Shown here: piece by piece, positions 3,956 to 30,378 of the stretch
How the letters are laid out: every line of letters starts with the position of its first letter
How positions within the stretch are numbered: the first letter of the stretch is position 1
NCBI GenBank assembly: GCA_937934305.1
Contig: CALHAG010000008.1
Location: 80,377-126,389 of the forward strand
Direction of reading: 5' to 3'
Length of the DNA: 46,013 nucleotides
Origin: Candidatus Caldarchaeum subterraneum
Lineage (GTDB): Archaea > Thermoproteota > Nitrososphaeria_A > Caldarchaeales > Caldarchaeaceae
The notes under the pieces: model-generated
What the model saw: only the letters and a program-made list of their open reading frames with translations
Databases searched by the model: none
What the model was told of the DNA's origin: nothing
Made by a program: the position numbers and the translations under genes

Positions 3956-4879
3956 TTGGTTAGGAAAACTTGGAGAGAAGTCGCATTATGTCCCGAATGT
4001 GGAAATGAGATGCTCGTGACAGACCAGAGGACCGGTGAGATTACCTGCTCGGTCTGCGGGTTCGTCATACAGGAAAAAGATGTGGACATGGGCCCCGAGT
4101 GGAGAAACCTTGAAGACGAGGAGGGGAGCAGAAGCAGAGTAGGGGCTCCTCTTTCACCAATGTATAGAGACCATGGTCTCTCAACGGTAATAGAGGGTGT
4201 GGATGAAGACGCTTCAGGCCGCAAACTCTCAAAAGAAACGCGGGAGAAGATGATTAGGCTCAAGAAGCTCGACGCCACGTCTCAGATAAACTCGAGCGAA
4301 ACAAGAAACCTGCAGCAAGCTGTGAACATTCTACAGATATATGTCGATAAGCTAAGGCTATCACAAACGGTTGCAGAAAGAGCTATGCTCATCTACAGAA
4401 GAGCCCTCAGAGCAGGGCTCGTCAGAGGAAGATCAATTAAATCCATCATGGCGGCAGCCACCTACGCCGCGTGCAGGATGCTGGGCACACCCCGAGACCT
4501 TCGAGAATTTGAACGCAGCTACCCAGCAGTCAAGCGAAAAACCATCGCACAGGGCTACAGGCTGTTGCTTAAGCATCTCGGGCTGAAAGTCCCCGTTGCG
4601 GACCCGTCGATATATGTTAACAAGATTGCGGCCAAGGTTGGGCTGGACCAGAGAACTGTCCAAGAAGCCATCCGTCTGCTAAATGAGGCGGTCAAACGTA
4701 AAGCAACGGTAGGAAAAGACCCCGTCGGAATAGCGGCAGCCGCCCTCTACATGGCCTGTCAAGAGACCACACAAAATCTAACACAGAAAGACATCGCGAA
4801 AGCGGCCGGCGTCACCGAAGTGACTGTGCGAAACCGTTTCAAGGGCCTCAAAGACGTTCTAGAGACGGTGGCAGCCTAA
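3956..4879 (+). CDS. tfb: transcription initiation factor TFB (TFIIB)
   Basis: 307 residues. TFB bridges TBP-DNA and RNA polymerase at the archaeal promoter. The N-terminal zinc ribbon has C12-x2-C15 and C31-x2-C34. A B-reader/linker follows (WRNLEDEEGSRSRVG, about 51-65), then two cyclin repeats (about 110-200 and 205-307), the second ending in a helix-turn-helix (QKDIAKAAGVTEVTVRNR). Length is normal for the family. The start is TTG with GGTGA upstream. It converges on the aIF1 gene with a 4-nt overlap of stop codons (CTAA). Whether the genome has other tfb copies cannot be seen here. Confidence 0.97.
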   Translation: MVRKTWREVALCPECGNEMLVTDQRTGEITCSVCGFVIQEKDVDMGPEWRNLEDEEGSRSRVGAPLSPMYRDHGLSTVIEGVDEDASGRKLSKETREKMIRLKKLDATSQINSSETRNLQQAVNILQIYVDKLRLSQTVAERAMLIYRRALRAGLVRGRSIKSIMAAATYAACRMLGTPRDLREFERSYPAVKRKTIAQGYRLLLKHLGLKVPVADPSIYVNKIAAKVGLDQRTVQEAIRLLNEAVKRKATVGKDPVGIAAAALYMACQETTQNLTQKDIAKAAGVTEVTVRNRFKGLKDVLETVAA

Positions 4880-5184
4880 ATTACCTCTATATTTTCTTCA
4901 GAGAGACCAAGTTCAACCAAAGCTTTTCTGACTCTGTCGCGATGGTCGCCCTGCAGCAAAATTACGCCATCCTTGACTACGCCGCCGCATGCCAGTGTGG
5001 ACTTTAGCTTCGAAGCTATCTCCTGCAAATCTTTCTTGCTGCCGTTCAACCCCTCGATTACCGTTGTGGGTTTGTTCCACTTTCTCAGCTCAAGCTTAAT
5101 TTTCACACGCTGCTGCTCCCGGCTTATGGTTTCGCAAACGCATATCGACTTCGGTAGACCGCATGTGTCACATATTTCAGCCAT
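4876..5184 (-). CDS. translation initiation factor aIF1 (SUI1 family)
   Basis: 102 residues. The SUI1/eIF1 fold occupies roughly residues 25-102. An archaeal-type N-terminal Cys cluster precedes it (C5, C8, C15, C17: CDTCGLPKSICVC). The family core is visible as TVIEGL (about 41-46), ACGGVVKDG (about 65-73) and LQGDHRD (about 77-83). It helps start-codon selection on the small ribosomal subunit. It stands alone and converges on tfb, overlapping by 4 nt. Confidence 0.95.
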   Translation of the reverse strand: MAEICDTCGLPKSICVCETISREQQRVKIKLELRKWNKPTTVIEGLNGSKKDLQEIASKLKSTLACGGVVKDGVILLQGDHRDRVRKALVELGLSEENIEVI

Positions 5185-5252
5185 TATTTACTCCTCAGCC
5201 TCACCTGATTTTCTATGCGTGAGGTTGTTTTTAAGGTTTTGAGAGCGTGTAG

Positions 5253-5960
5253 TCATTTCTTCAGGTATGCCTGCCGCTTCCTATTGTATTCATCTACGTC
5301 ATAGGCATATTTCGCAGGGTTTCCGAAAACAACGGCTCTAGGCGGAACGTTCCGTGTGACAACAGAGCCCGCTCCCACCACAGCGCCCTCACCCACCTCA
5401 ACACCCGGCAGAATCACCGCACCCGCTCCAATTATCGCCCCCGTCGCTATGGTGGGGCCCTTCAGGGGCGAGCCCACAGGGTAAGGGTCGTTGGTCATCA
5501 CAACATTGGGACCAATGAAGACATTGTCCATTATTTTCGTGAGATGCGGAATATAGACGTTGGATTGTATGTTGACACCGCGGCCAACCAACACAGAGCC
5601 ATCGAGCATCGAGCCGCTGCCTATCCGGGAACCGCTCCGAATCATCGTGCCCGAGCGGATCAACACGTTGTGTCCAAGCTCCACATCTCCTTCGATAATA
5701 ACCTCGTCATAGATTATGCATCCCCTTCTTATCAAACATCCTGGGCCGATGAAGCTTCCCAGGCTCGCATCCTCCATTACCGAGATGTGGTCTGTGAGCC
5801 TTTTTTCTATGGCTTGTAGAAGACGATGGCGCGCGGGATAACCAATTGTAACCATATCGTCCACAAACGTGGCTTCCCCTATCTCCGTAGCACCAAACAC
5901 AAACGCGTTTGGAGAAGCCGTGCCCTTGATTCTTGAACGCGGGGAGATAAACCCCGACAT
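5253..5960 (-). CDS. hexapeptide-repeat acyltransferase (left-handed beta-helix)
   Basis: 235 residues. Repeated hexapeptide turns run from about residue 60 to 215 (for example VIIEGDVELGHNVLIRSG and GAIIGAGAVILPG), the signature of a left-handed beta-helix acetyl- or acyltransferase trimer. HLTKIMDNVFIGPNVVMTND near the middle matches WbbJ/WbpD-type sugar O- or N-acetyltransferases. A basic tail ends the protein. An ATATATTTTT box at 5984-5993 lies about 28 bp before the ATG, so the gene is probably leaderless. Substrate is unknown; a role in surface polysaccharide or glycolipid assembly is inferred from family relatives. Confidence 0.87.
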   Translation of the reverse strand: MSGFISPRSRIKGTASPNAFVFGATEIGEATFVDDMVTIGYPARHRLLQAIEKRLTDHISVMEDASLGSFIGPGCLIRRGCIIYDEVIIEGDVELGHNVLIRSGTMIRSGSRIGSGSMLDGSVLVGRGVNIQSNVYIPHLTKIMDNVFIGPNVVMTNDPYPVGSPLKGPTIATGAIIGAGAVILPGVEVGEGAVVGAGSVVTRNVPPRAVVFGNPAKYAYDVDEYNRKRQAYLKK

Positions 5961-17058: not shown

Positions 17059-17088
17059 CTTTAAAGGTTGCGGATAAAAAGTTATATC
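17059..17088. promoter_or_regulatory. back-to-back TATA-like boxes for ileS and the molybdopterin-domain gene
   Basis: CTTTAAAG at 17059-17066 lies about 32 bp before the ileS ATG at 17030 on the minus strand. GTTATATC at 17081-17088 lies about 26 bp before the GTG at 17110 on the plus strand. The start codons are 80 bp apart. Confidence 0.5.
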
Positions 17089-17109
17089 AGCTTCGGAGAT
17101 TGTTTATAC

Positions 17110-17604
17110 GTGACTCTTAAGGACCTGCCGACCTTTCCCAGCCAGAAGAAAGGGAGAGATTTTCTTCTCATTCGAGGCAAAGTCTCGAAAACGGTTGTGT
17201 TTTCGCTCAACGAGTTGATGCGTCTCCCCACAGTGTCCTTGACTTTTGACTTTAGATGTCTGGAGGGGTGGGTTGTGCCAGATACCGAGTGGCAGGGGGT
17301 AAAGGTATCCACTCTTCTCGAGGCGGCAGAGCCTCTGCCCGATGCAAGGTATGCAGTGTTCAAGTCAGGCGATTATTCAGAGTGTTTTCCGGTCTCAGAG
17401 GCCAAGGAAATGGTCGTCGCATACCGGTATCGTGGAAAAGAAATCCCAGCCGAGCACGGTGGACCTCTGAGGCTTGTTTTCCCGGGTCAGGAGTGTTACC
17501 AGAGTATCAGGTGGCTTGAGGAGATAGAGTTGACAGGCGAGTATGTGGAGGGGACGGCTCGGTCGACGGCGTTGTCCAGGATTGGGTTAGTAGCAAGCAG
17601 GTGA
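17110..17604 (+). CDS. stand-alone molybdopterin-binding oxidoreductase domain protein
   Basis: 164 residues from GTG at 17110. It belongs to the sulfite oxidase/YedY molybdopterin domain family (Oxidored_molyb). The predicted molybdenum-ligand Cys is C50 in FDFRCLEGW, and EHGGPLRLVFPG near residue 115 fits the cofactor-binding loop. It lacks the C-terminal dimerisation domain of sulfite oxidases and has no Tat or Sec leader, so it looks cytoplasmic. An upstream TTG at 17068 would put the TATA-like box inside the gene, so 17110 is preferred. Substrate unknown. The end TGAATTCA (17602-17609) is a palindrome giving the stop codons of both convergent genes. Confidence 0.8.
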   Translation: MTLKDLPTFPSQKKGRDFLLIRGKVSKTVVFSLNELMRLPTVSLTFDFRCLEGWVVPDTEWQGVKVSTLLEAAEPLPDARYAVFKSGDYSECFPVSEAKEMVVAYRYRGKEIPAEHGGPLRLVFPGQECYQSIRWLEEIELTGEYVEGTARSTALSRIGLVASR

Positions 17605-17606
17605 AT

Positions 17607-18116
17607 TCATAGCTTAAGTGGATTGCCCATCTTTCCGCTGAATGCAAGAGCCTCGATGGGCTGTCTGTTTTTTCGGCCAATTATTTTATGCTTCGGGTAG
17701 CCGAAACCTATGACGCATGCTATGTGGTATTCTTGCGGGACTCCATATTTTCCTCGCATAGCCTTTTCGTCATAGCCCGTGTATACACGTGAGCCGACGG
17801 ACCTGTTCCAGGCCGCGAGCTGCATGTGAGTGGCTACTCTTCCAGCGTCAAACAAATGCCATGGATACTTTGGAGAAGTGAGAACAATCACCGCCAACGC
17901 AGCGTTCTCAACCCATTTGCCTGACGTGCTCATCTCAGCCAACTGCTTCAGCTCATCAGCTCCCTCAACCAAGATAAAACGCCAGTGCTGCGAGTTAAGC
18001 CCGCTCGGCGAAAGCCTCGCCGCCTCGAGAATCTCCTTAACAACCTCGCGTGGAACCGGTTTATCAGCGAATTCCCTTATCTCTAGCCGGGTTTTTATCG
18101 CTTCAAAAACATCCAT
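17607..18116 (-). CDS. nitroreductase-family flavoprotein
   Basis: 169 residues from ATG 18116. An FMN-binding nitroreductase fold: MDVFEAIKTRLEIREF at the start, AARLSPSGLNSQHWRF (about 33-48), and the C-terminal GFGYPKHKIIGRKNRQP. Members reduce nitro compounds, quinones, enones or flavins with NAD(P)H. ATG 18116 is chosen because a TTTAAA box at 18141-18146 is about 27 bp away; an ATG at 18125 is possible. It lies downstream of the PurM-like gene but seems to have its own promoter inside the 38-bp gap. Confidence 0.87.
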   Translation of the reverse strand: MDVFEAIKTRLEIREFADKPVPREVVKEILEAARLSPSGLNSQHWRFILVEGADELKQLAEMSTSGKWVENAALAVIVLTSPKYPWHLFDAGRVATHMQLAAWNRSVGSRVYTGYDEKAMRGKYGVPQEYHIACVIGFGYPKHKIIGRKNRQPIEALAFSGKMGNPLKL

Positions 18117-18154
18117 GCCATTCATGTGTTTCTGGATGGTTTTAAAGGTTGGGC

Positions 18155-19135
18155 CTAGGAGATGATTCTCCACAGCTCGTCCTGTATGGGGCCCTTGATT
18201 TTCTCCTCGCGTCCATTCTCTGTTACCCTCATCCCCTGTCTGCGGGGAAGTATTTTCCCTATTATTCTCCCTCCTATCTTTGCCAGAACTCTGCTGCTGA
18301 AACGTGGCGCGGTGGCTATCAGTGCTCCCGAGCTTATTAGCCTGAGAGGGTCAATATCCATTTTTTCGCAGACACGCTGCACAAGAGGATGAATCGGCAC
18401 CCTCGACCTGTCGATTTCGAATCCAACGCCAGCGGCTTCAGCGACTTCATACAATCCGCCGAGAAGACCGCCCTCTGTCGGGTCATGCATACAGTTTACA
18501 CCCGTCGAAGCCAGAGACAAGGCCTCATCGACGACTGATGTTTTTTTGATAAGCAGAGACCCCATCCTCAGCTCCTTTTCTGTGAAGCCTTTACGCCTAA
18601 GCACGTCGGCAAAGTCCGCGGATAATATTGCCACGCCTTCAAGCCCCGGAGACTTCACCAAAAGAATCTCGTCCCCCGGTTTTGCTCCACTGGTGGTCAC
18701 GGGGGTCGGCGCGACCAGTTTACCAGTCATGTGTCCTACGACTACTGGTGATGAGACGAAGGGAGCGACCTCTGAATGACCCGTCACAACAGCCACATCC
18801 ATCCGTCTACAGGCGAGATGTATCTGGTCGACGATTCTCTTGAGGTCGGCTGGTGTGCTGCCCTTCGGCAACAGTATGGTTGAGGAGAACCACTGTGGTC
18901 TTCCACCACATACTGCGACATCGTTAGCCGAGGCGTGGACAGCGAGCCAGCCGACGAAGCTTTTCGAGCCGGTGATCGGGTCCATTGAAACTATGTAGAT
19001 GTCCTTTGACGTCTTGACCGCTCCCGCGTCTTCGCCGAAATTTGGCCAGAGAACAACGTCTCTCCGCCTAGCACCCACTCTACGCAGCACAACATCCTTC
19101 AAAACCTTCTCCGGAAGCTTGCCCAGAGGAAGCAA
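18155..19135 (-). CDS. PurM/HypE-like ATP-binding protein, specific role unknown
   Basis: 326 residues of the AIR-synthase (PurM) superfamily. The N-terminal ATP-binding half has NFGEDAGAV (32-40) and MDPITGS; the C-terminal half has HDPTEGGLLGGLYE (about 216-229). It is closest in style to archaeal HypE-like 'AIR synthase related' proteins. HypE ends in a reactive Cys that becomes the thiocarbamate for hydrogenase cyanide; this protein ends in WRIIS with no terminal Cys, so it is not a working HypE. No selenium-binding Cys/Sec loop of SelD is seen. It is tightly packed behind etfBA and the MobA-like gene. Confidence 0.8.
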   Translation of the reverse strand: MLPLGKLPEKVLKDVVLRRVGARRRDVVLWPNFGEDAGAVKTSKDIYIVSMDPITGSKSFVGWLAVHASANDVAVCGGRPQWFSSTILLPKGSTPADLKRIVDQIHLACRRMDVAVVTGHSEVAPFVSSPVVVGHMTGKLVAPTPVTTSGAKPGDEILLVKSPGLEGVAILSADFADVLRRKGFTEKELRMGSLLIKKTSVVDEALSLASTGVNCMHDPTEGGLLGGLYEVAEAAGVGFEIDRSRVPIHPLVQRVCEKMDIDPLRLISSGALIATAPRFSSRVLAKIGGRIIGKILPRRQGMRVTENGREEKIKGPIQDELWRIIS

Positions 19136-19137
19136 AC

Positions 19138-19746
19138 CTACTCCCCCGTAACCGACTGAAGAATCTGAGCAGCTTTCCTGACATCCGACTGCGTTTGAAC
19201 CTTGACGAGGAAACGGAGCTTGTCATCAAAAACTTTGAAGCTCTGAAGAGATATGTATAAAACATTTCCCACATGTTTCACGAGGTCTCCCATCTTTAGC
19301 TCTGGATTCTGGTCCATGGCTTGGAGAAATGGTTTGACACGGTAGGAGGCGGGGGTGAACTCTGGCTTGTCAAAAACAGGCCGCGGTATCCCCGCGGAGA
19401 ATCGTGTCACAACATCTCGTAGAAACATGACCACCTCTCTGTTGATAAGAGGTGTGTCACAGGAGAGGGCGACCACTGCGTCGCATGATTTCTCGCGGAA
19501 AAGCTGTTCAAGATGGAAACGGATATCGAGCTCCTTTGGTCCAGCGTCCAACAGCTGCGCTCCATAGTTCTCGGCTATGTCTCTATACTCGTTCAGAGAA
19601 GCTTGCTGGGCCATGATGACGATTTCATCGGTGTCTTCAGGGACAGCGTCGAGCACATATTCTATCATGGGCCTCTTGTTTATTTTTATGAGGCCTCTGC
19701 GTCCGCCAGGGTCTTGGTTAGCGAGAACGGTTGTTAGGTAATGCAT
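19138..19746 (-). CDS. MobA-like nucleotidyltransferase with altered nucleotide-binding loop
   Basis: 202 residues, a Rossmann-like NTP transferase fold of the MobA/CobY type. Family blocks seen are IKINKRPMIEYVLDAV (21-36) and LSCDTPLINREVV (about 93-105). The nucleotide-binding loop, normally LAGGxSxRMGxDK, here reads LANQDPGGRRGLIKIN, so the first GG is lost. It may use another nucleotide, or have lost activity. It is 4 bp from etfA and 3 bp from the PurM-like gene, which makes a role in preparing a cofactor or nucleotide linked to the ETF system plausible. That link is inference. Confidence 0.72.
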   Translation of the reverse strand: MHYLTTVLANQDPGGRRGLIKINKRPMIEYVLDAVPEDTDEIVIMAQQASLNEYRDIAENYGAQLLDAGPKELDIRFHLEQLFREKSCDAVVALSCDTPLINREVVMFLRDVVTRFSAGIPRPVFDKPEFTPASYRVKPFLQAMDQNPELKMGDLVKHVGNVLYISLQSFKVFDDKLRFLVKVQTQSDVRKAAQILQSVTGE

Positions 19747-19749
19747 GTT

Positions 19750-20691
19750 TTAACTGCCCAGTTTCTTTTTGAGAATTTCGATGGTGAGGGGTAGGATTTT
19801 GTAGAGGTCTGCGACAAAGTAGTAGTCTGACTCCGTGGCCATTGGAGCGTTGGGGTCTATGTTGACTGCTATCACGGTTTTGCTGTCACGCATTCCGACG
19901 AGATGCTGCACCTGCCCAGATATGCCCAACGCTATGTAGAGGTTGGGTCTCACACGTTTACCGGATAATCCTATGTGCCGCTCCTCCTCAAGCCATTTAA
20001 GGTCACCTGATATCGGCCTGCTGCATCCAATCTCTGCGCCAATCAGTTTCGCAAGCTCCTCCGCAAGCGATAAATCCTCCTTTTTCTTGAATCCGCGGCC
20101 AACAGACACAATCAAACTAGCTTTCTCAAGGTCCACCCGTGTCTTCTCAGGCTTGATGGTTTCTAACACCTCGACAGCGGGGGCGTCGATACCTGGGTCA
20201 AACTCCTCCACAGCCGGCTTCATGCCCTGAGAGGTCTCCGATGCCGATACCTTCACGGAAGCCAAGGCAGGCTTGCTGTTAAGCGAAACAGTGGCCACGT
20301 AACCGCCACCCAACACAAGGCGTTTAGCCACAAAACCTTTCTCACCTTTCTCGACGGCGAAGGCCTCAGATGCATAGGCCGCGTCAAGCCGCTGCGCCAA
20401 TCGGCCACATATCTCTACACCTTTCTTTGACGCATAGATTAAAACAAGAGCGGGGTCGAGTTTCTTCACCAGCTCCGCCAAAGCCGCTGCAGAGGCCGCT
20501 GCTCCAGAAGCCAGATATTTTTCGGGTATGTGGATGAGTTTTTCGACTCCTGCTCCGCCAAGCATAGCAAGCTCGTTTTCCGTGAAGGGTTTGAAGGCCG
20601 CTGCGACGACTTGAGCTGGGTTGAGTGATTTTGCGTAGTTGGCTGTCGTGATGACTTGCTCCGGTTTTTCACCTGCAACGAGCACTTTCAT
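19750..20691 (-). CDS. etfA: electron transfer flavoprotein, alpha subunit
   Basis: 313 residues. The C-terminal FAD-binding domain (about 190-313) is complete: SVGRGFKKKED, ERHIGLSGKRVRPNLYIALG, SGQVQHLVGMRDSKTVIAVN and a closing ADLYKILP helix. With EtfB it carries electrons from acyl-CoA or other dehydrogenases to a membrane acceptor. The start overlaps the etfB stop by 4 nt (ATGA-type), the usual sign of 1:1 translation. The gene order etfB-etfA follows a membrane Fe-S oxidoreductase gene, which should be its quinone-linked partner. Confidence 0.96.
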   Translation of the reverse strand: MKVLVAGEKPEQVITTANYAKSLNPAQVVAAAFKPFTENELAMLGGAGVEKLIHIPEKYLASGAAASAAALAELVKKLDPALVLIYASKKGVEICGRLAQRLDAAYASEAFAVEKGEKGFVAKRLVLGGGYVATVSLNSKPALASVKVSASETSQGMKPAVEEFDPGIDAPAVEVLETIKPEKTRVDLEKASLIVSVGRGFKKKEDLSLAEELAKLIGAEIGCSRPISGDLKWLEEERHIGLSGKRVRPNLYIALGISGQVQHLVGMRDSKTVIAVNIDPNAPMATESDYYFVADLYKILPLTIEILKKKLGS

Positions 20692-21503
20692 CTTCTACCA
20701 CCCATGTGTGCGATGATTCTTTCCGCTAGTTTTTCAGCCAGCTCCTCCACCTTTCCCTCGAAAACCTGTCTCCTTCTCTCGGTCTTCAGGGCCTTTACCT
20801 CGAGTGTCTCAGCCCTCGGCATGAGGTCGTCCTTGGTGAGCCCAACATCGTTGAGTGAGAGCTCCTTGAGAGGCTTTTTCTGCGCGGCCCTAATCATCAA
20901 CAGGCTTGGGAGACGTGGTGTGTTGATTTCCAATCCTACCGTGACCACGGCTGGCAAGCTGCATGAAACAACCTCCACTCCGTCTTCGACGGCCCGCCAT
21001 GCCTTCAAAACACGGTCCCCTACCTCCAGCTTGTTAACGTATGAAACATGTGGAACGTTGAAAATTTCTGCGAGACGTGGACCGGTTTGGTAAGCGTTCT
21101 GGTCTAGAGAGGCTTCTCCGCACAGTATAATGTCCCATTTCGGTGAAGCTGTCTTTATGACCGCTGCGAGGGCTTTTGCGGTCGCTGCGCCGTCAGCCTG
21201 TGCGAGAGATGGGTCTGAGAGAATGTAGGCCTCGTCCGCTCCCATGGCTAGACACTCCCTCACCAGAAGCTGCTTAACCTCAGGCCCCACGCTGACGACG
21301 ACCACCTTGCCTCCGCTCTTTTCCTTGATGCGGACAGCCTCTTCAACAGCGTTGAGGTCGAAGTCGCTGTTCTTCCACTGCGCCTGAGAAAGCTGTGGCG
21401 CAAGAGTCTCGGGATGCGGCTTCAACTGATAAACGTCAACAGTCTGCTTGACGCAAACCACGATATCGGGCATAGTTCTCGACATCATCCGATATGTGCC
21501 CAT
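20688..21503 (-). CDS. etfB: electron transfer flavoprotein, beta subunit
   Basis: 271 residues. The family opening DIVVCVKQTVDVYQLKPHP is near residues 12-30, NDFDLNAVEEAVRIKE-like NSDFDLNAVEEAVRIKEK near 46-63, and the nucleotide-binding region SVGPEVKQLLVRECLAMGADEAYIL near 72-96. The first ten residues before MPDIVV may not be translated; internal ATGs at 21488, 21485 and 21473 are options. The gene starts 15 bp after the membrane oxidoreductase stop. Residues for bifurcating flavin binding cannot be judged without an alignment. Confidence 0.95.
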   Translation of the reverse strand: MGTYRMMSRTMPDIVVCVKQTVDVYQLKPHPETLAPQLSQAQWKNSDFDLNAVEEAVRIKEKSGGKVVVVSVGPEVKQLLVRECLAMGADEAYILSDPSLAQADGAATAKALAAVIKTASPKWDIILCGEASLDQNAYQTGPRLAEIFNVPHVSYVNKLEVGDRVLKAWRAVEDGVEVVSCSLPAVVTVGLEINTPRLPSLLMIRAAQKKPLKELSLNDVGLTKDDLMPRAETLEVKALKTERRRQVFEGKVEELAEKLAERIIAHMGGRR

Positions 21504-21518
21504 CTAAAAAACCATGTC

Positions 21519-23528
21519 CTAGATGCTTTCCGCGACTATCTCCGCTATGTCCTTTATCTTGAGGCTCTGGTCGACGCCTGTGACACGTGCTGCGTCGGCG
21601 AACATCTGCATACAGTAGGGGCATTCGACGGCGAGGATAGAGGCCCCCGTCTCCACAGCCTCCCTAAGACGTATAACGCTTTCTCTATCCGTTCTCCTCA
21701 CCTCATACCAGTAGGTGCTTCCTCCGGCACCGCAGCAGAAGCTTTTACGACCGCTTCTACTCATCTCCACATAGGCTCCATCCTTGTTAGCCGACTGGAT
21801 GACAAACCTCGGCTCCTCGAAAACATCGTTAATCCTCCCTATGTAGCATGAGTCATGAAGCGTTATTTTTTCGGATAGAGGTTTCGTGAGCTTGAGTCTA
21901 CCCGTTCTCAGCAGCTCGCCGATAACCTGTGAATGATGCTTCACCTCCAGCTCGAGCCCAAAGTCTCTGTATTCTTTCTTCAAAGTGTTGAAGCAGTGTG
22001 GACAGTTCACTATTATTTTCTTCACAGATTTCTGTTTGAGTGTCTCGATGTTTTGGAGAGCAAGTTCTTGGAAACGTCCTTCCTCTCCTATGCGGCGGGC
22101 GGGGTCGCCTGTGCATGTTTCCTCAACGCCGAGAACCGCGAATGAGACTCCTGCTTTGAGCAAGATTTTTGCAACACTTTTAGCTATCTCTCGTCCACGT
22201 GCATCATATATCGAGGCGCATCCAATCCAGTAAACATATTCTGCGTCGGGTTTTTCTTCAAGTGTCTGCACACCCATCTCGGCAAGTTCCTCGAAAAACT
22301 TCTGTTTCTCGCTTTGGTCGAAGCCGTATGGGTTACCGTATCTGCTCAGGTTAGTTAACATCGCTGTTTTGCGTTTATCCAGCTTACCCTCGAGAGTAAG
22401 GGCCCTCCTCATCTCAAGAATGTAATCCATGGGCCTGATCAAGACTGGGCAGGCCTCTATGCATGCTGAGCAAGTGGTGCATGCCCAGACCTCCTCCTCA
22501 TCTATCAACCCCGAGGCAAATACATCTTCGTCGAGGCCGTCGCTTCTCCAAAGCTGTCTCCGAAGCTTCTGCATTATGTCACGGGGGGAAAGAGGGGTGC
22601 CTGCGGCATGGGCGGGACACGCGGCTTCACATCTTCCGCAGTCGGTGCAGGCGTCTAGACCCAGCTTCTCCATCCACCCAAGCTCCGACAAACTCCTGAA
22701 ACCTAGCTTGATGTCAGCCGAGGGGTCGAGCTCATCTATCCTAAAAGGTGTTTTCATCTTACCGAGAGGAAGTTGCCGAGGCGCGTTGACGGCGATGTTC
22801 AACAGTGTGGAAAAAATGTGTCCAAGAGGTGAGTAGGGCAGCACAGCAACCATCGCGAAAGCCACGATTGCGTGGCTCCACCAAATGCCTCGATAAAGCA
22901 GGGTCAGCGGCTCCGTTGGCAGGTTTACGAAGAAGGCCGTTGATACGGCTTTGCCGACGAAGCTATACCCGCTCCACGGCCTCGGCTCAACCGTGAGCCT
23001 AATGGCCTCCAATACATATCCCGACAACCCTATAAAGAGAAGACCCGCCAGAGCCATGGAATACTCCAACCTGTTCCGAAGCCTCGGCTCATGCCTGATA
23101 AAACGCCTGTAAATGAGGAGAGCTAATCCGAGCAGAAACGCCACACCCATCACATCGAGGACAAACTCGAACCCGAGATAGAAATCTCCGCGGAGAAGCC
23201 GGAGACCCAGAACACGTAGAATGTCATGGTCTATGAAGACGAGGGTGGTGCCTATGAAGAGAGCGATGATGCCGGTGTATATCAACAAATGCATAACCCC
23301 CGCCAAATGCTCGGAAACAACCTTGCGCTGCAATAAGCCATACCTAGCCATGTAGCCAACGCCTCTGAAAACACTGTTAAGCAACTCACCAACGCTCCTC
23401 ACACCCAAACGCCTAAGCCGATAAACAACCCCGAAAACAAACACCAACGCAAAAGGCACAAGGACAAGATACATCAAAAAATCCGTTCCCGGAGGCAGCA
23501 GAATGTATGTCTCCCGGATAGGCTCCAT
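21519..23528 (-). CDS. membrane HdrD-like Fe-S oxidoreductase with cytochrome b domain (putative ETF:quinone oxidoreductase)
   Basis: 669 residues. The N-terminal third has several membrane helices of the NarI/HdrE cytochrome b type. A ferredoxin pair follows (CTDCGRCEAACP near 291; CTTCSACIEACP near 348). Two CCG-type Cys-rich blocks come next: WIGCASIYD with CPHCFNTLKKEY, then HDSCYIGR with FCCGAGG near 596. The same fused plan is seen in the membrane ETF:menaquinone oxidoreductase (EMO) of syntrophic bacteria, which passes electrons from ETF to quinone. Position directly ahead of etfBA strongly supports this role here. The ATG has a TTTTAAAG box about 28 bp upstream, so it leads the operon. 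Confidence 0.9.
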   Translation of the reverse strand: MEPIRETYILLPPGTDFLMYLVLVPFALVFVFGVVYRLRRLGVRSVGELLNSVFRGVGYMARYGLLQRKVVSEHLAGVMHLLIYTGIIALFIGTTLVFIDHDILRVLGLRLLRGDFYLGFEFVLDVMGVAFLLGLALLIYRRFIRHEPRLRNRLEYSMALAGLLFIGLSGYVLEAIRLTVEPRPWSGYSFVGKAVSTAFFVNLPTEPLTLLYRGIWWSHAIVAFAMVAVLPYSPLGHIFSTLLNIAVNAPRQLPLGKMKTPFRIDELDPSADIKLGFRSLSELGWMEKLGLDACTDCGRCEAACPAHAAGTPLSPRDIMQKLRRQLWRSDGLDEDVFASGLIDEEEVWACTTCSACIEACPVLIRPMDYILEMRRALTLEGKLDKRKTAMLTNLSRYGNPYGFDQSEKQKFFEELAEMGVQTLEEKPDAEYVYWIGCASIYDARGREIAKSVAKILLKAGVSFAVLGVEETCTGDPARRIGEEGRFQELALQNIETLKQKSVKKIIVNCPHCFNTLKKEYRDFGLELEVKHHSQVIGELLRTGRLKLTKPLSEKITLHDSCYIGRINDVFEEPRFVIQSANKDGAYVEMSRSGRKSFCCGAGGSTYWYEVRRTDRESVIRLREAVETGASILAVECPYCMQMFADAARVTGVDQSLKIKDIAEIVAESI

Positions 23529-23552
23529 CGCATAGTTAACACGGCACCCGGT

Positions 23553-23584
23553 TTTTAAAGATAAGCAAACTAAACATATTTATC
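23553..23584. promoter_or_regulatory. back-to-back TATA-like boxes for the ETF operon and malic enzyme
   Basis: TTTTAAAG (23553-23560) is about 28 bp from the oxidoreductase ATG at 23528; CATATTTATC (23575-23584) is about 27 bp from the malic enzyme ATG at 23607. The starts are 79 bp apart, so both transcripts should be leaderless. Confidence 0.55.
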
Positions 23585-27039: not shown

Positions 27040-28320
27040 TTAGCCCTTGTTGCCGCTTTCATTATGAAGGAGCTCCACCTCAACCTCCTGCCCCTCTTCA
27101 AACCCCTCAACCCCCTCAGGCACAACCAGTAACCCATCAGCCTTTGTCAACGTGGAGAGGAGACCTGAGCCCGTGAGCATTAAAGGTTCAACCAAAACCC
27201 CATCCGGTGTTCTTTTAACACATACACGGACATACGTCCTTGTTAAGGCGGGGTTGGCGACGCGTCTAGTCAACTTGCCTCTCACGGTGCATGTCATGGA
27301 AGATTTTCTGCCGTAGGCCCTCTCCAGCAAAGGCTTGACGAACAGCATAAAACCCAACGCAGCAGACACAGGATATCCCGAGAGCATGAAGACCGGTTTA
27401 CCTTTGACCACCGCGGCGCCTGTGGGCTTGGCGGGCCTTATCCTGACTCCGTGGAAAATGATATCTGAGCCGTCGACCTTTTTCACCGCCTCTGGAACTA
27501 AATCTTTCCCGCCGACGCTTGTGCCACCCGTTACGATGAGCATGTCCAAGACATCAACGGCCTCGGAGATCTTAGCGGCTATGAGGCCCAAGTCATCCTC
27601 AACCGTGCCCCAATCCACGGGCTCTGCACCATGTTCCTCCAGCAATGCTTTCAGCATCGGCTTAGAACTGTTTATGACCTGGCCTTCGCTGGGCTGGGTG
27701 CCGGGTTCGACCAGCTCGCTTCCCGTGCTCATGACACCTACCCGTACTTTCTTGTAGACAGGTATGGTGGTTATGTTGAGAGAGGCCAGTGCGCCTATGT
27801 GCCATGACCTTATCCGTGTCCCTCTCGCAACAACCAGCTCATTCATTCTAAAATCTTCACCAACTCTCGAAACATTTTGTAGAGGATGGACTTGGCGAGT
27901 AACTTCCAAAACATATTCCCCGATTCTCTTAGCATGTTCAGCCATCACCACAGCGTTAGCCCCCTCTGGAAGAGGCGCGCCCGTGTAGATCTCCACAGCC
28001 TCGCCTTGCGAGATCTTTGGAACATCCATTCTTCTGACACCTGCATGAGAGAATCCTTTGACGACAAGATACACGGGGTTGTTCGGCGACGCTCCGAAGG
28101 TGTCTTCAGCCAACACCGCGTAGCCGTCAACCGCGCTCTTCTCAAAAGGCGGCACATCAACAGGTGAAAAAATGTCATCCGCACAGTATCTGCCTAAGCT
28201 ATGTTCGAGAGAAACTTTCTCGACATCGGGATGGGTTGTTGATGTTTTCTCGAGAAGGAGTGATAATGCTTCAGAGAGAGTTGGTAAGGTGGCGAAGCCT
28301 GTCATTCTACGTGTGGACAT
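27040..28320 (-). CDS. moeA: molybdopterin molybdotransferase MoeA
   Basis: 426 residues. MoeA inserts molybdate into adenylylated molybdopterin. Blocks in order: PPFEKSAVDGYAV near 59-71 (family P-x-x-x-x-S-x-x-D-G-Y-A), IYTGAPLPEGANAVVMAE near 111-128, STGSELVEPG near 215, and VTGGTSVGGKDLVPEAV near 264-280, followed by SGYPVSA and a C-terminal domain IV. Length is normal, with no PBP-like extension. It follows the small helical gene by 6 bp and is probably in one operon with fdhD. Confidence 0.96.
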   Translation of the reverse strand: MSTRRMTGFATLPTLSEALSLLLEKTSTTHPDVEKVSLEHSLGRYCADDIFSPVDVPPFEKSAVDGYAVLAEDTFGASPNNPVYLVVKGFSHAGVRRMDVPKISQGEAVEIYTGAPLPEGANAVVMAEHAKRIGEYVLEVTRQVHPLQNVSRVGEDFRMNELVVARGTRIRSWHIGALASLNITTIPVYKKVRVGVMSTGSELVEPGTQPSEGQVINSSKPMLKALLEEHGAEPVDWGTVEDDLGLIAAKISEAVDVLDMLIVTGGTSVGGKDLVPEAVKKVDGSDIIFHGVRIRPAKPTGAAVVKGKPVFMLSGYPVSAALGFMLFVKPLLERAYGRKSSMTCTVRGKLTRRVANPALTRTYVRVCVKRTPDGVLVEPLMLTGSGLLSTLTKADGLLVVPEGVEGFEEGQEVEVELLHNESGNKG

Positions 28321-28566: not shown

Positions 28567-29379
28567 TCACCTGGTGGCTATTTTGAGGACGGCTCCGGTT
28601 ATTCTCTCGGGGTAAGAGTACACTGTCAAGCCTTTACCCCTGACGACACTTGCCATGGTTACCCCTGACTTCAACGCGGCGTAAACCCCTGAGAAAATTG
28701 GACCACGAAGCGAGACGGTTATAGGTATTCCGACCCGGGCGGCTTTTAACACCATGTCAGACGCCTGACGCCCCGTTGTCAAAAGCAAGCTCCTGGTGAA
28801 ATCGATGCGTTGGAGAGCTGCTTTCCCAATAACCTTGTCAACGGTCACATGGCGGCTAACGTCCATCGCCAAGCTGACAAGCTGCCCCTCGGTGTCTGAA
28901 TATATGCCTGCCGTGTGAACCGAGACAGCGCGTTTAGAGTGTCTGCCGAACTCGGCCATCACATTCCTGAGCTTATCCACTCCGATTCTAAAGTCGCTGT
29001 TTACCCTGGGTTTTGTGTTATTGTCAAAGGCTCTGAGATAGTCTTCGACCGAGCCGCAGGAAGTTATTATGAGTTTAAACGTTTTGTATCTCTCCAGACG
29101 TTTCTCCAACTCCCCGTTACCTATGTTCAAGTTGACGAGGATGTCGAGACCATCGACCACGACATCACCAACCTGCTCCACATCATCCACAACACCATGG
29201 CCCAGGAGATGGCCCACAACCATCTCCTTCAGCTCATGCGGCGTCGCAAAAACCGTGACGAAGTGCTTCTCGTTAACGTATATGTTTATTGGAAACTCTA
29301 GAGCAACCTCGTCAACCACCGCTTCTCCGGTGTCAAGACGCACCCCTCTGACGCTGGTTGACAGGCCTTGTCCATGCAT
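28567..29379 (-). CDS. fdhD: FdhD, formate dehydrogenase accessory sulfurtransferase
   Basis: 270 residues from ATG 29379. FdhD transfers sulfur to the molybdenum cofactor of formate dehydrogenases and related enzymes. Blocks: DEVALEFPINIYVNE near the start, ELKEMVVGHLLGHG, then TSCGSVEDY, VHTAGIYS, DVSRHVTVDKVIGKA and LLLTTGRQASDMVLKAARVGIP. The family CxxC reads C-G-S-V, so only the first Cys is present. The upstream ATG-free extension to 29496 is rejected because a CTTTTAAG box at 29402-29409 lies 26 bp before ATG 29379. No formate dehydrogenase gene is in this window. Confidence 0.94.
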   Translation of the reverse strand: MHGQGLSTSVRGVRLDTGEAVVDEVALEFPINIYVNEKHFVTVFATPHELKEMVVGHLLGHGVVDDVEQVGDVVVDGLDILVNLNIGNGELEKRLERYKTFKLIITSCGSVEDYLRAFDNNTKPRVNSDFRIGVDKLRNVMAEFGRHSKRAVSVHTAGIYSDTEGQLVSLAMDVSRHVTVDKVIGKAALQRIDFTRSLLLTTGRQASDMVLKAARVGIPITVSLRGPIFSGVYAALKSGVTMASVVRGKGLTVYSYPERITGAVLKIATR

Positions 29380-29401
29380 CTGGTGAGAGAATACGCAGAG
29401 G

Positions 29402-29428
29402 CTTTTAAGCGTTAATGAATTAAAATAT
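29402..29428. promoter_or_regulatory. back-to-back TATA-like boxes for fdhD and the tRNA thiolase
   Basis: CTTTTAAG (29402-29409) serves fdhD on the minus strand (26 bp to ATG 29379). ATTAAAATAT (29419-29428) serves the thiolase on the plus strand (28 bp to TTG 29452). The starts are 73 bp apart. Confidence 0.5.
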
Positions 29429-29451
29429 CCGGGTAAGGGAGTTGGAGCGGG

Positions 29452-30378
29452 TTGTTGTCGACAGTTGAGAGAGAGGCTGTTTGCAACGTCTGCCACGACG
29501 GCAAGGCTGTTTACTATAGGGTGTATTCTGGTGAGAGGCTTTGCAGGACATGTTTTGTCAAGACCTTTGAGAAGCGGGTTATCCGAACAATCGGCAGATA
29601 CAAGCTGTTTAAGCCTGATGATAAAATAGCTGTGGCTGTCTCGGGCGGCAAAGACAGTCTATCTCTTCTCTATGTCTTGAAAAAGATTGAGAAGAGGTTT
29701 CCACGTGCCGGTTTGTTGGCTGTCACGGTTGACGAGGGTATAGAGGGCTACCGCGACGAGGCTTTGGAGTATGTTGAGGAGGTGACACGGATGCTGGAGG
29801 TGCCTCTTTACAAGACAAGTTTTGAGGAGGTGTTTGGAAAAACCTTGTCCGAGATAGTTGCTTCTAGACAGTTCAGGTTGAGTGGGTTGGCTGCGTGCAG
29901 TGTCTGCGGGCCGTTGAGGAGACGGGCTATAAACATAGCCGCTAAGAGGGCGGGAGCAACTGTGATAGCCACCGCACACACTTTGGACGATGTTGTTCAA
30001 ACCTATTTTCTCAAGACGTTTAGAGGCGAGCTTGGCACGTCGGAGATAGGGCTTAGGCTCGAAGGGCCTTTCATACCGCGTGTTGCACCCTTCAGACTCA
30101 CACCTGAGAGGGAGGTGGTTTTCTACGCCTACCTCCACAACATACCTTTCCAGAGCCAAGTCTGCCCCAACGCAGCGGATAGCATGCGAAACATGATACG
30201 CAGGTTTCTCGCAGAGTTTGATGAAAGATATCCAGGCTCACTCTTCGCCGCGCTCAGAAGCTTCGAGAAAACAGCAACACTTGGAAAGAAGATTCAAATG
30301 GTCTGCAGCAGCTGCGGTGAGCCGAGCAGCAGGGAGCTTTGCCGCGTCTGCGAGTTGACACAAACCCTCATACACTGA
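29452..30378 (+). CDS. TtuA/NcsA-type tRNA 2-thiouridine synthetase
   Basis: 308 residues. It adenylates and thiolates a uridine in tRNA (position 54 or 34, depending on subtype). The N-terminal zinc finger has C11, C14, C31 and C34; the PP-loop ATPase motif SGGKDS is at 64-69; the three Fe-S cysteines align as C149, C152 and C238; a second zinc finger closes the protein (CSSC near 302, CRVC near 313 by pattern). TTG 29452 fits a leaderless transcript. U34 or U54 specificity cannot be separated without phylogeny. It may act on the same wobble uridines as Elp3. Confidence 0.93.
   Translation: MLSTVEREAVCNVCHDGKAVYYRVYSGERLCRTCFVKTFEKRVIRTIGRYKLFKPDDKIAVAVSGGKDSLSLLYVLKKIEKRFPRAGLLAVTVDEGIEGYRDEALEYVEEVTRMLEVPLYKTSFEEVFGKTLSEIVASRQFRLSGLAACSVCGPLRRRAINIAAKRAGATVIATAHTLDDVVQTYFLKTFRGELGTSEIGLRLEGPFIPRVAPFRLTPEREVVFYAYLHNIPFQSQVCPNAADSMRNMIRRFLAEFDERYPGSLFAALRSFEKTATLGKKIQMVCSSCGEPSSRELCRVCELTQTLIH

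Follow-up and report, generated by a model that had tools for sequence, protein, structure and literature searches.

The window analysed here is a stretch of 46,013 nucleotides from Candidatus Caldarchaeum subterraneum, and the subject of this report is a run of five closely spaced genes on its reverse strand. The first gene in the direction of transcription (21519..23528) encodes a 669-residue membrane protein of the EtfD/EMO type, an electron-transfer flavoprotein (ETF):quinone oxidoreductase, assigned by its Pfam CCG and Fer4 domains, a match to PDB entry 9ojn_A and its ligands; N-terminal helices with a heme b membrane domain are followed by two [4Fe-4S] sites and two CCG domains. Next come etfB for the ETF beta subunit (20688..21503, 271 residues; PF01012, E=1e-42), etfA for the alpha subunit (19750..20691, 313 residues; PF00766, E=4e-34), a 202-residue protein of the MobA fold (19138..19746; NTP_transf_3, PF12804, 38 bits; hereafter NTPT) and a 326-residue AIR-synthase-related protein of the HypE/ThiL fold (18155..19135; domains AIRS and AIRS_C, PF00586 and PF02769; hereafter AIRS). 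The membrane gene and etfB are 15 bp apart, etfB and etfA overlap by 4 bp, and 3 bp and then 2 bp separate etfA from NTPT and NTPT from AIRS; all five open reading frames carry the domains named in the original prediction, which had described them as tightly packed. That prediction went on to suggest a role for the last two genes in making or modifying a cofactor of the ETF complex. We arrive at a different reading, to which we assign a probability of roughly 0.8: two unrelated modules would share one directon, the membrane protein with EtfBA (19750-23528) forming an EtfD/EMO route and NTPT with AIRS (18155-19746) forming an independent pair in which AIRS is a working ATP enzyme and NTPT has probably lost the ability to transfer nucleotides.

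The membrane protein matches the cryo-electron microscopy structure of Mycobacterium smegmatis EtfD (PDB 9ojn_A) with E=1.5e-84. In EtfD the D1 site is bound by Cys503, 538, 581 and 584 with Thr539, the residue linked to the linear [3Fe-4S] cluster, the D2 site by Cys637, 672, 673, 709 and 712 and by His583, and heme b by His78 and His241 (PMC13083937). We took the ligand positions from that work and judged their conservation on 15 aligned full-length sequences. The window protein has every one of the 17 Fe-S cysteines as well as His511, the histidine of the cluster, and the heme histidines His80 and His237. The D1 counterparts are C437, C472, C509 and C512 with T473, which occupies the position of Thr539, and the cysteines are kept throughout the 15 sequences save for one C512G; the D2 counterparts (C561, C598, C599, C636, C639 and H511) and the two cubane motifs (C294, C297, C300, C304 and C350, C353, C356, C360) are invariant. 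H237 aligns with EtfD His241 in the pairwise alignment, while H80, which falls in a stretch outside that alignment, was matched to the other heme histidine by spacing. H80, H219 and H237 are invariant among the aligned homologs, and the membrane domain contains about five hydrophobic helices. The match to a solved EtfD and the conserved ligands support, at the level of sequence, the earlier assignment of the first gene and etfBA to a membrane ETF:(mena)quinone oxidoreductase route, and by analogy with the EtfD structure and the Syntrophus aciditrophicus EMO the window protein would have ETF:quinone oxidoreductase activity.

Genome-wide statements in this report are based on family searches, and the window genome (G000) is a 1.56 Mb assembly of 97% completeness. 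Among 44 Caldarchaeales genomes, 30 have both the full-length membrane protein and PF00441 acyl-CoA dehydrogenases, 1 has the membrane protein only, 3 have a dehydrogenase only and 10 have neither (Fisher p=1.2e-6, a value that overstates the independent evidence because the genomes are related). Presence of the membrane protein was scored with a hand-set cut of ~330 bits, split and contig-end copies being counted. The gene adjoins etfBA in several lineages of Caldarchaeales, and etfB also follows it in relatives at L111, L045-L047 and, with one gene between, L109. From the EtfD match, the ligands and this co-occurrence we therefore infer a route from acyl-CoA dehydrogenase through EtfBA and the EtfD-type protein to quinone. 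Acyl-CoA dehydrogenases would reduce EtfBA, and the reduced ETF would hand its electrons to the membrane protein, where they could pass along a D1 site of the linear [3Fe-4S] type, a noncubane D2 site, two cubanes and heme b to the membrane quinone. Two papers on Caldarchaeales/Aigarchaeota (PMC6053391, PMC10547907) mention beta-oxidation or acyl-CoA dehydrogenases and make no mention of ETF or EtfD/EMO. The flavin adenine dinucleotide-type ETF dehydrogenase (FixC/ETF-QO) is absent from the window operon, as the original prediction held; this is true of the locus but not of the genome, where contig C6 carries a second ETF set (L116:8552-12540) made up of an EtfB-like protein of 410 residues, an EtfA-like protein of 392 residues and a FixC(X)-like protein (L116:8552-10240, 562 residues) with a ferredoxin-like C-terminus.

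The case for a separate second module comes from the distribution of its genes across families and genera, for which we use the search tool's own labels (families f1-f4, genera g1-g14). NTPT was found in 44/44 Caldarchaeales genomes. In f4, a sister family, NTPT and AIRS are adjacent by coordinates in all 22 genomes and mostly lie far from etf; 11 of these 22 have no full-length membrane protein, and 8 of those 11 also lack PF00441. Conversely, 11 genomes have EtfD but no close AIRS ortholog, and presence of AIRS shows no association with that of the membrane gene in the Caldarchaeales genomes (counts 20/11/11/2 for both, one only, the other only and neither; p=0.28). In f2 and f3, AIRS is missing from the place next to NTPT; the only close AIRS ortholog in f2, in G030, is ~99 kb away from NTPT, and both f3 genomes are without one. 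Caldarchaeales thus appear to possess NTPT and AIRS as a pair in its own right, which has come to be placed behind etfBA in f1, the family of the window genome. There, the order membrane gene-etfB-etfA-NTPT-AIRS is kept in 7 of the 8 genomes while NTPT identities fall from 95% to ~38%, and this recurrence makes it more than chance; in the eighth, G006, the NTPT gene is separate from both etf and AIRS.

Several observations weigh against a complete separation of the two modules. In five g7 genomes a distance of 4-5 kb separates NTPT-AIRS from the etf-EMO cluster, which is on the opposite strand, and in the g7 genomes that were read an RtcB-like and a CDC48-like gene (named by sequence reading) lie between them; the modules have therefore been neighbours more widely than in one family. 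In a further g7 genome, G025, the distance is ~190 kb. Three genera preserve the order of the five genes, so selection for co-expression is also possible.

The directon continues beyond the five genes listed in the original prediction. A sixth co-directional gene (17607..18173, reverse strand), for a nitroreductase-family flavin mononucleotide protein of 188 residues (PF00881, E=1e-23), overlaps AIRS by 19 bp; the same neighbour is present in L031-L033, that is, within the genus only, and in other genera no such gene was seen beside AIRS. At the other end, a candidate archaeal TATA-like element (ctttaaaaac, 23551..23560, reverse strand) lies ~28 bp upstream of the first start codon by our reading of the sequence. 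In Pelearchaeum, etfA and NTPT are separated by ~150 bp containing an AT-rich element, an arrangement that would fit two transcription units. Beyond the nitroreductase, a convergent gene at 17068-17604 encodes a stand-alone sulfite-oxidase-type molybdopterin-binding domain of 178 residues, and MoeA (27040-28320) and FdhD (28567-29496) lie within ~12 kb.

The predicted structure of NTPT (AlphaFold2, pLDDT 93.8) has the MobA of Archaeoglobus fulgidus (3ngw) as its best fold match, and a PDB sequence search returned nothing below E=0.2. Its nucleotide loop, LAGGxSxRxG in MobA, is degraded throughout the order: in 37 aligned Caldarchaeales sequences the arginine is missing in 37/37 and the first glycine in 34/37. 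Outgroup orthologs have the loop complete (4/4), and on inspection 19 of 20 more homologs from the phylum retain it or nearly do. The 37 sequences form one clade with support 100/100; the GGxSxR loop was lost once, at the base of Caldarchaeales. One NTPT homolog outside the order (L269:2963-3676, G049) also has no LAGG loop, possibly an independent loss in f10. The protein is not decaying, given that its ratio of nonsynonymous to synonymous substitution rates between two Caldarchaeum species is 0.094, indicating strong purifying selection and similar to the values for AIRS (0.093) and EtfA (0.084). NTPT is probably a pseudo-nucleotidyltransferase, and the claim that both added enzymes use nucleotide or ATP chemistry is not supported for this one. 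A basic residue (K/R) is kept in 32/37 sequences and the metal aspartate in 31/37; residual binding is therefore possible, and the absence of GGxSxR is no proof of inactivity.

The least improbable alternative holds that NTPT remains a diverged guanylyltransferase of the MobA type, serving a molybdenum/tungsten pterin cofactor, with AIRS as an ATP enzyme accessory to the same pathway. The fold match to A. fulgidus MobA, the full signature in orthologs outside Caldarchaeales and the presence of MoeA, FdhD and the molybdopterin-binding domain gene within ~11 kb in the window all agree with it. We nevertheless consider it improbable: besides the lost loop, NTPT is kept in 18/44 genomes, nearly complete ones among them, that have no PF00384 bis-molybdopterin guanine dinucleotide enzyme, which disfavours a remaining MobA role, and most f2 and both f3 genomes are without a close AIRS ortholog, though some have PF00384 enzymes. 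The window genome also has another, canonical MobA-like protein (G000:C21) and a MocA-like protein, both with near-canonical loops. Against TIGR02665 NTPT scores 27.2 bits where the cut-off is 151.85, a value that no member from the 61 genomes reaches. A role as CofC was considered and set aside, a canonical CofC being present in the genome. The roles of CofC, ThiL, riboflavin kinase, MobA-like and MocA-like proteins are all filled already by canonical genes in the window genome.

Somewhat less probable still is the cofactor pathway originally proposed, in which NTPT and AIRS would supply the ETF/EtfD complex with, for example, a modified flavin or nucleotide. The conserved order in f1, the 2-3 bp gaps in the window genome, the closeness of etf in g7 and a riboflavin-type energy-coupling factor (ECF) transporter component beside AIRS in many Bathyarchaeota speak for it. 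However, the pair persists where both full-length EtfD and acyl-CoA dehydrogenase are lacking, EtfD occurs without a close AIRS ortholog, the nucleotide loop of NTPT is lost and a canonical riboflavin kinase (PF01982) is present, which also led us to reject AIRS itself as that kinase. By the original prediction's own yardstick the proposal fails: the five-gene order recurs in f1, but in f4 NTPT and AIRS are fixed partners of one another, with etf mostly elsewhere. The evidence thus lends no support to a pathway that makes a cofactor for ETF.

AIRS likewise gives a confident predicted structure (pLDDT 95.0), with HypE (3wjp/3vyt) as the best folds at TM ~0.8. That it might simply be a misnamed HypE (hydrogenase maturation) or ThiL (thiamine phosphate kinase) is the least probable alternative, for although TIGR02124 hypE is its best family match and its fold matches both, the scores of 105.6 bits for hypE and 75.2 bits for ThiL are far under the cut-offs of 251.6 and 184, its C-terminus (...DELWRIIS) has no carbamoyl-carrying cysteine such as that of HypE (a HypE-like paralog in L113 ends in PRIC), GHTEV stands in place of HypE's GDTKV, and a real ThiL scoring 215.7 bits is encoded elsewhere in the genome, the only other AIRS-family match found there with AIRS as query. 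AIRS has at least 578 relatives, the best 80 nearly all archaeal, with named members from Candidatus Caldarchaeum, Pelearchaeum, archaeon HR01, Wolframiiraptor, Geocrenenecus and Terraquivivens, which places the source organism in the order Caldarchaeales (Aigarchaeota). The protein belongs to an uncharacterised archaeal family, and our reading is that it is a functional enzyme with the HypE/ThiL/SelD fold that depends on ATP. No universal partner was found at 62 AIRS loci outside Caldarchaeales, the neighbours varying by lineage. In many Bathyarchaeota AIRS adjoins the ECF transporter S component (PF07155) and a threonine synthase-like gene, one example being L139:3513-4301 with AIRS at 4342-5328; in Thorarchaeota the neighbours, named by reading alone, are a MoxR/chelatase-like AAA ATPase pair and a SurE-like gene. 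Some f4 genomes contain a second AIRS-like copy of ~35% identity (G013:C1:316448-317446, G015:C7:14088-15086, G037:C24:36200-37186).

Returning to the reading of two unrelated modules, what is unusual in it is a MobA descendant without its loop, under selection across the order and paired in two families with an uncharacterised enzyme of an ATP fold. The automatic annotation "MobA-like nucleotidyltransferase" is probably wrong because a protein without the nucleotide loop is conserved across the whole order. NTPT descends from a MobA-type nucleotidyltransferase and would now most likely serve as a non-catalytic binding or scaffold protein, standing beside AIRS in two families; this is the weakest step of the proposal. 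One could go further and speculate that NTPT and AIRS constitute an undescribed archaeal two-protein system, in which a core-gene pseudo-nucleotidyltransferase derived from MobA binds and steers an ATP enzyme of the AIRS family; we regard this as tentative and on balance doubtful.

Compared with known proteins, NTPT shares the fold and the sequence family PF12804 with MobA (A. fulgidus 3ngw, Escherichia coli 1e5k) but differs in that LAGGxSxR is replaced in Caldarchaeum by LANQDP, shortened by 3 residues. AIRS has the two-domain fold of HypE and ThiL (3wjp, 3vyt, 3c9u; TM 0.7-0.8) with the DPTxGG and ND motifs, and differs from them by the missing C-terminal cysteine, by its own GHTEV (GHSEV in the window protein) and DPITG motifs seen in the alignment, and by its scores far under both family cut-offs. 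The membrane protein resembles mycobacterial EtfD (PDB 9ojn; PMC13083937) and the S. aciditrophicus EMO (PMC8805022) in carrying heme b in a membrane domain, along with two cubane 4Fe-4S sites and two CCG domains, and it has counterparts of the EtfD D1-D4 ligands and heme histidine pair, Thr473 at the Thr539 position included. The 669-residue window protein differs in having no ~30 kDa disordered C-terminus, in being archaeal and in having its partner etfBA directly downstream; the S. aciditrophicus protein has two hemes, and the window protein may have one or two. The original prediction noted the occurrence in an archaeon, which is correct but not new: a haloarchaeon has been published in which EtfAB adjoins a membrane EtfAB:menaquinone oxidoreductase, with FixABCX in addition (AArc1_1643-5; PMC6176080). 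Both are archaeal, with a membrane oxidoreductase adjoining etfAB and a FixABCX-like set (here L116:8552-12540) also in the genome; the window genome differs in its phylum, in having its two ETF sets on different contigs and in the NTPT-AIRS pair behind one of them. The ETF part of the operon is therefore an archaeal version of a known and already published kind of set, and it places the EtfD/EMO route from acyl-CoA oxidation to the respiratory chain, unusual cluster ligands included, in an order of thermophilic archaea whose acyl-CoA dehydrogenases it tracks.

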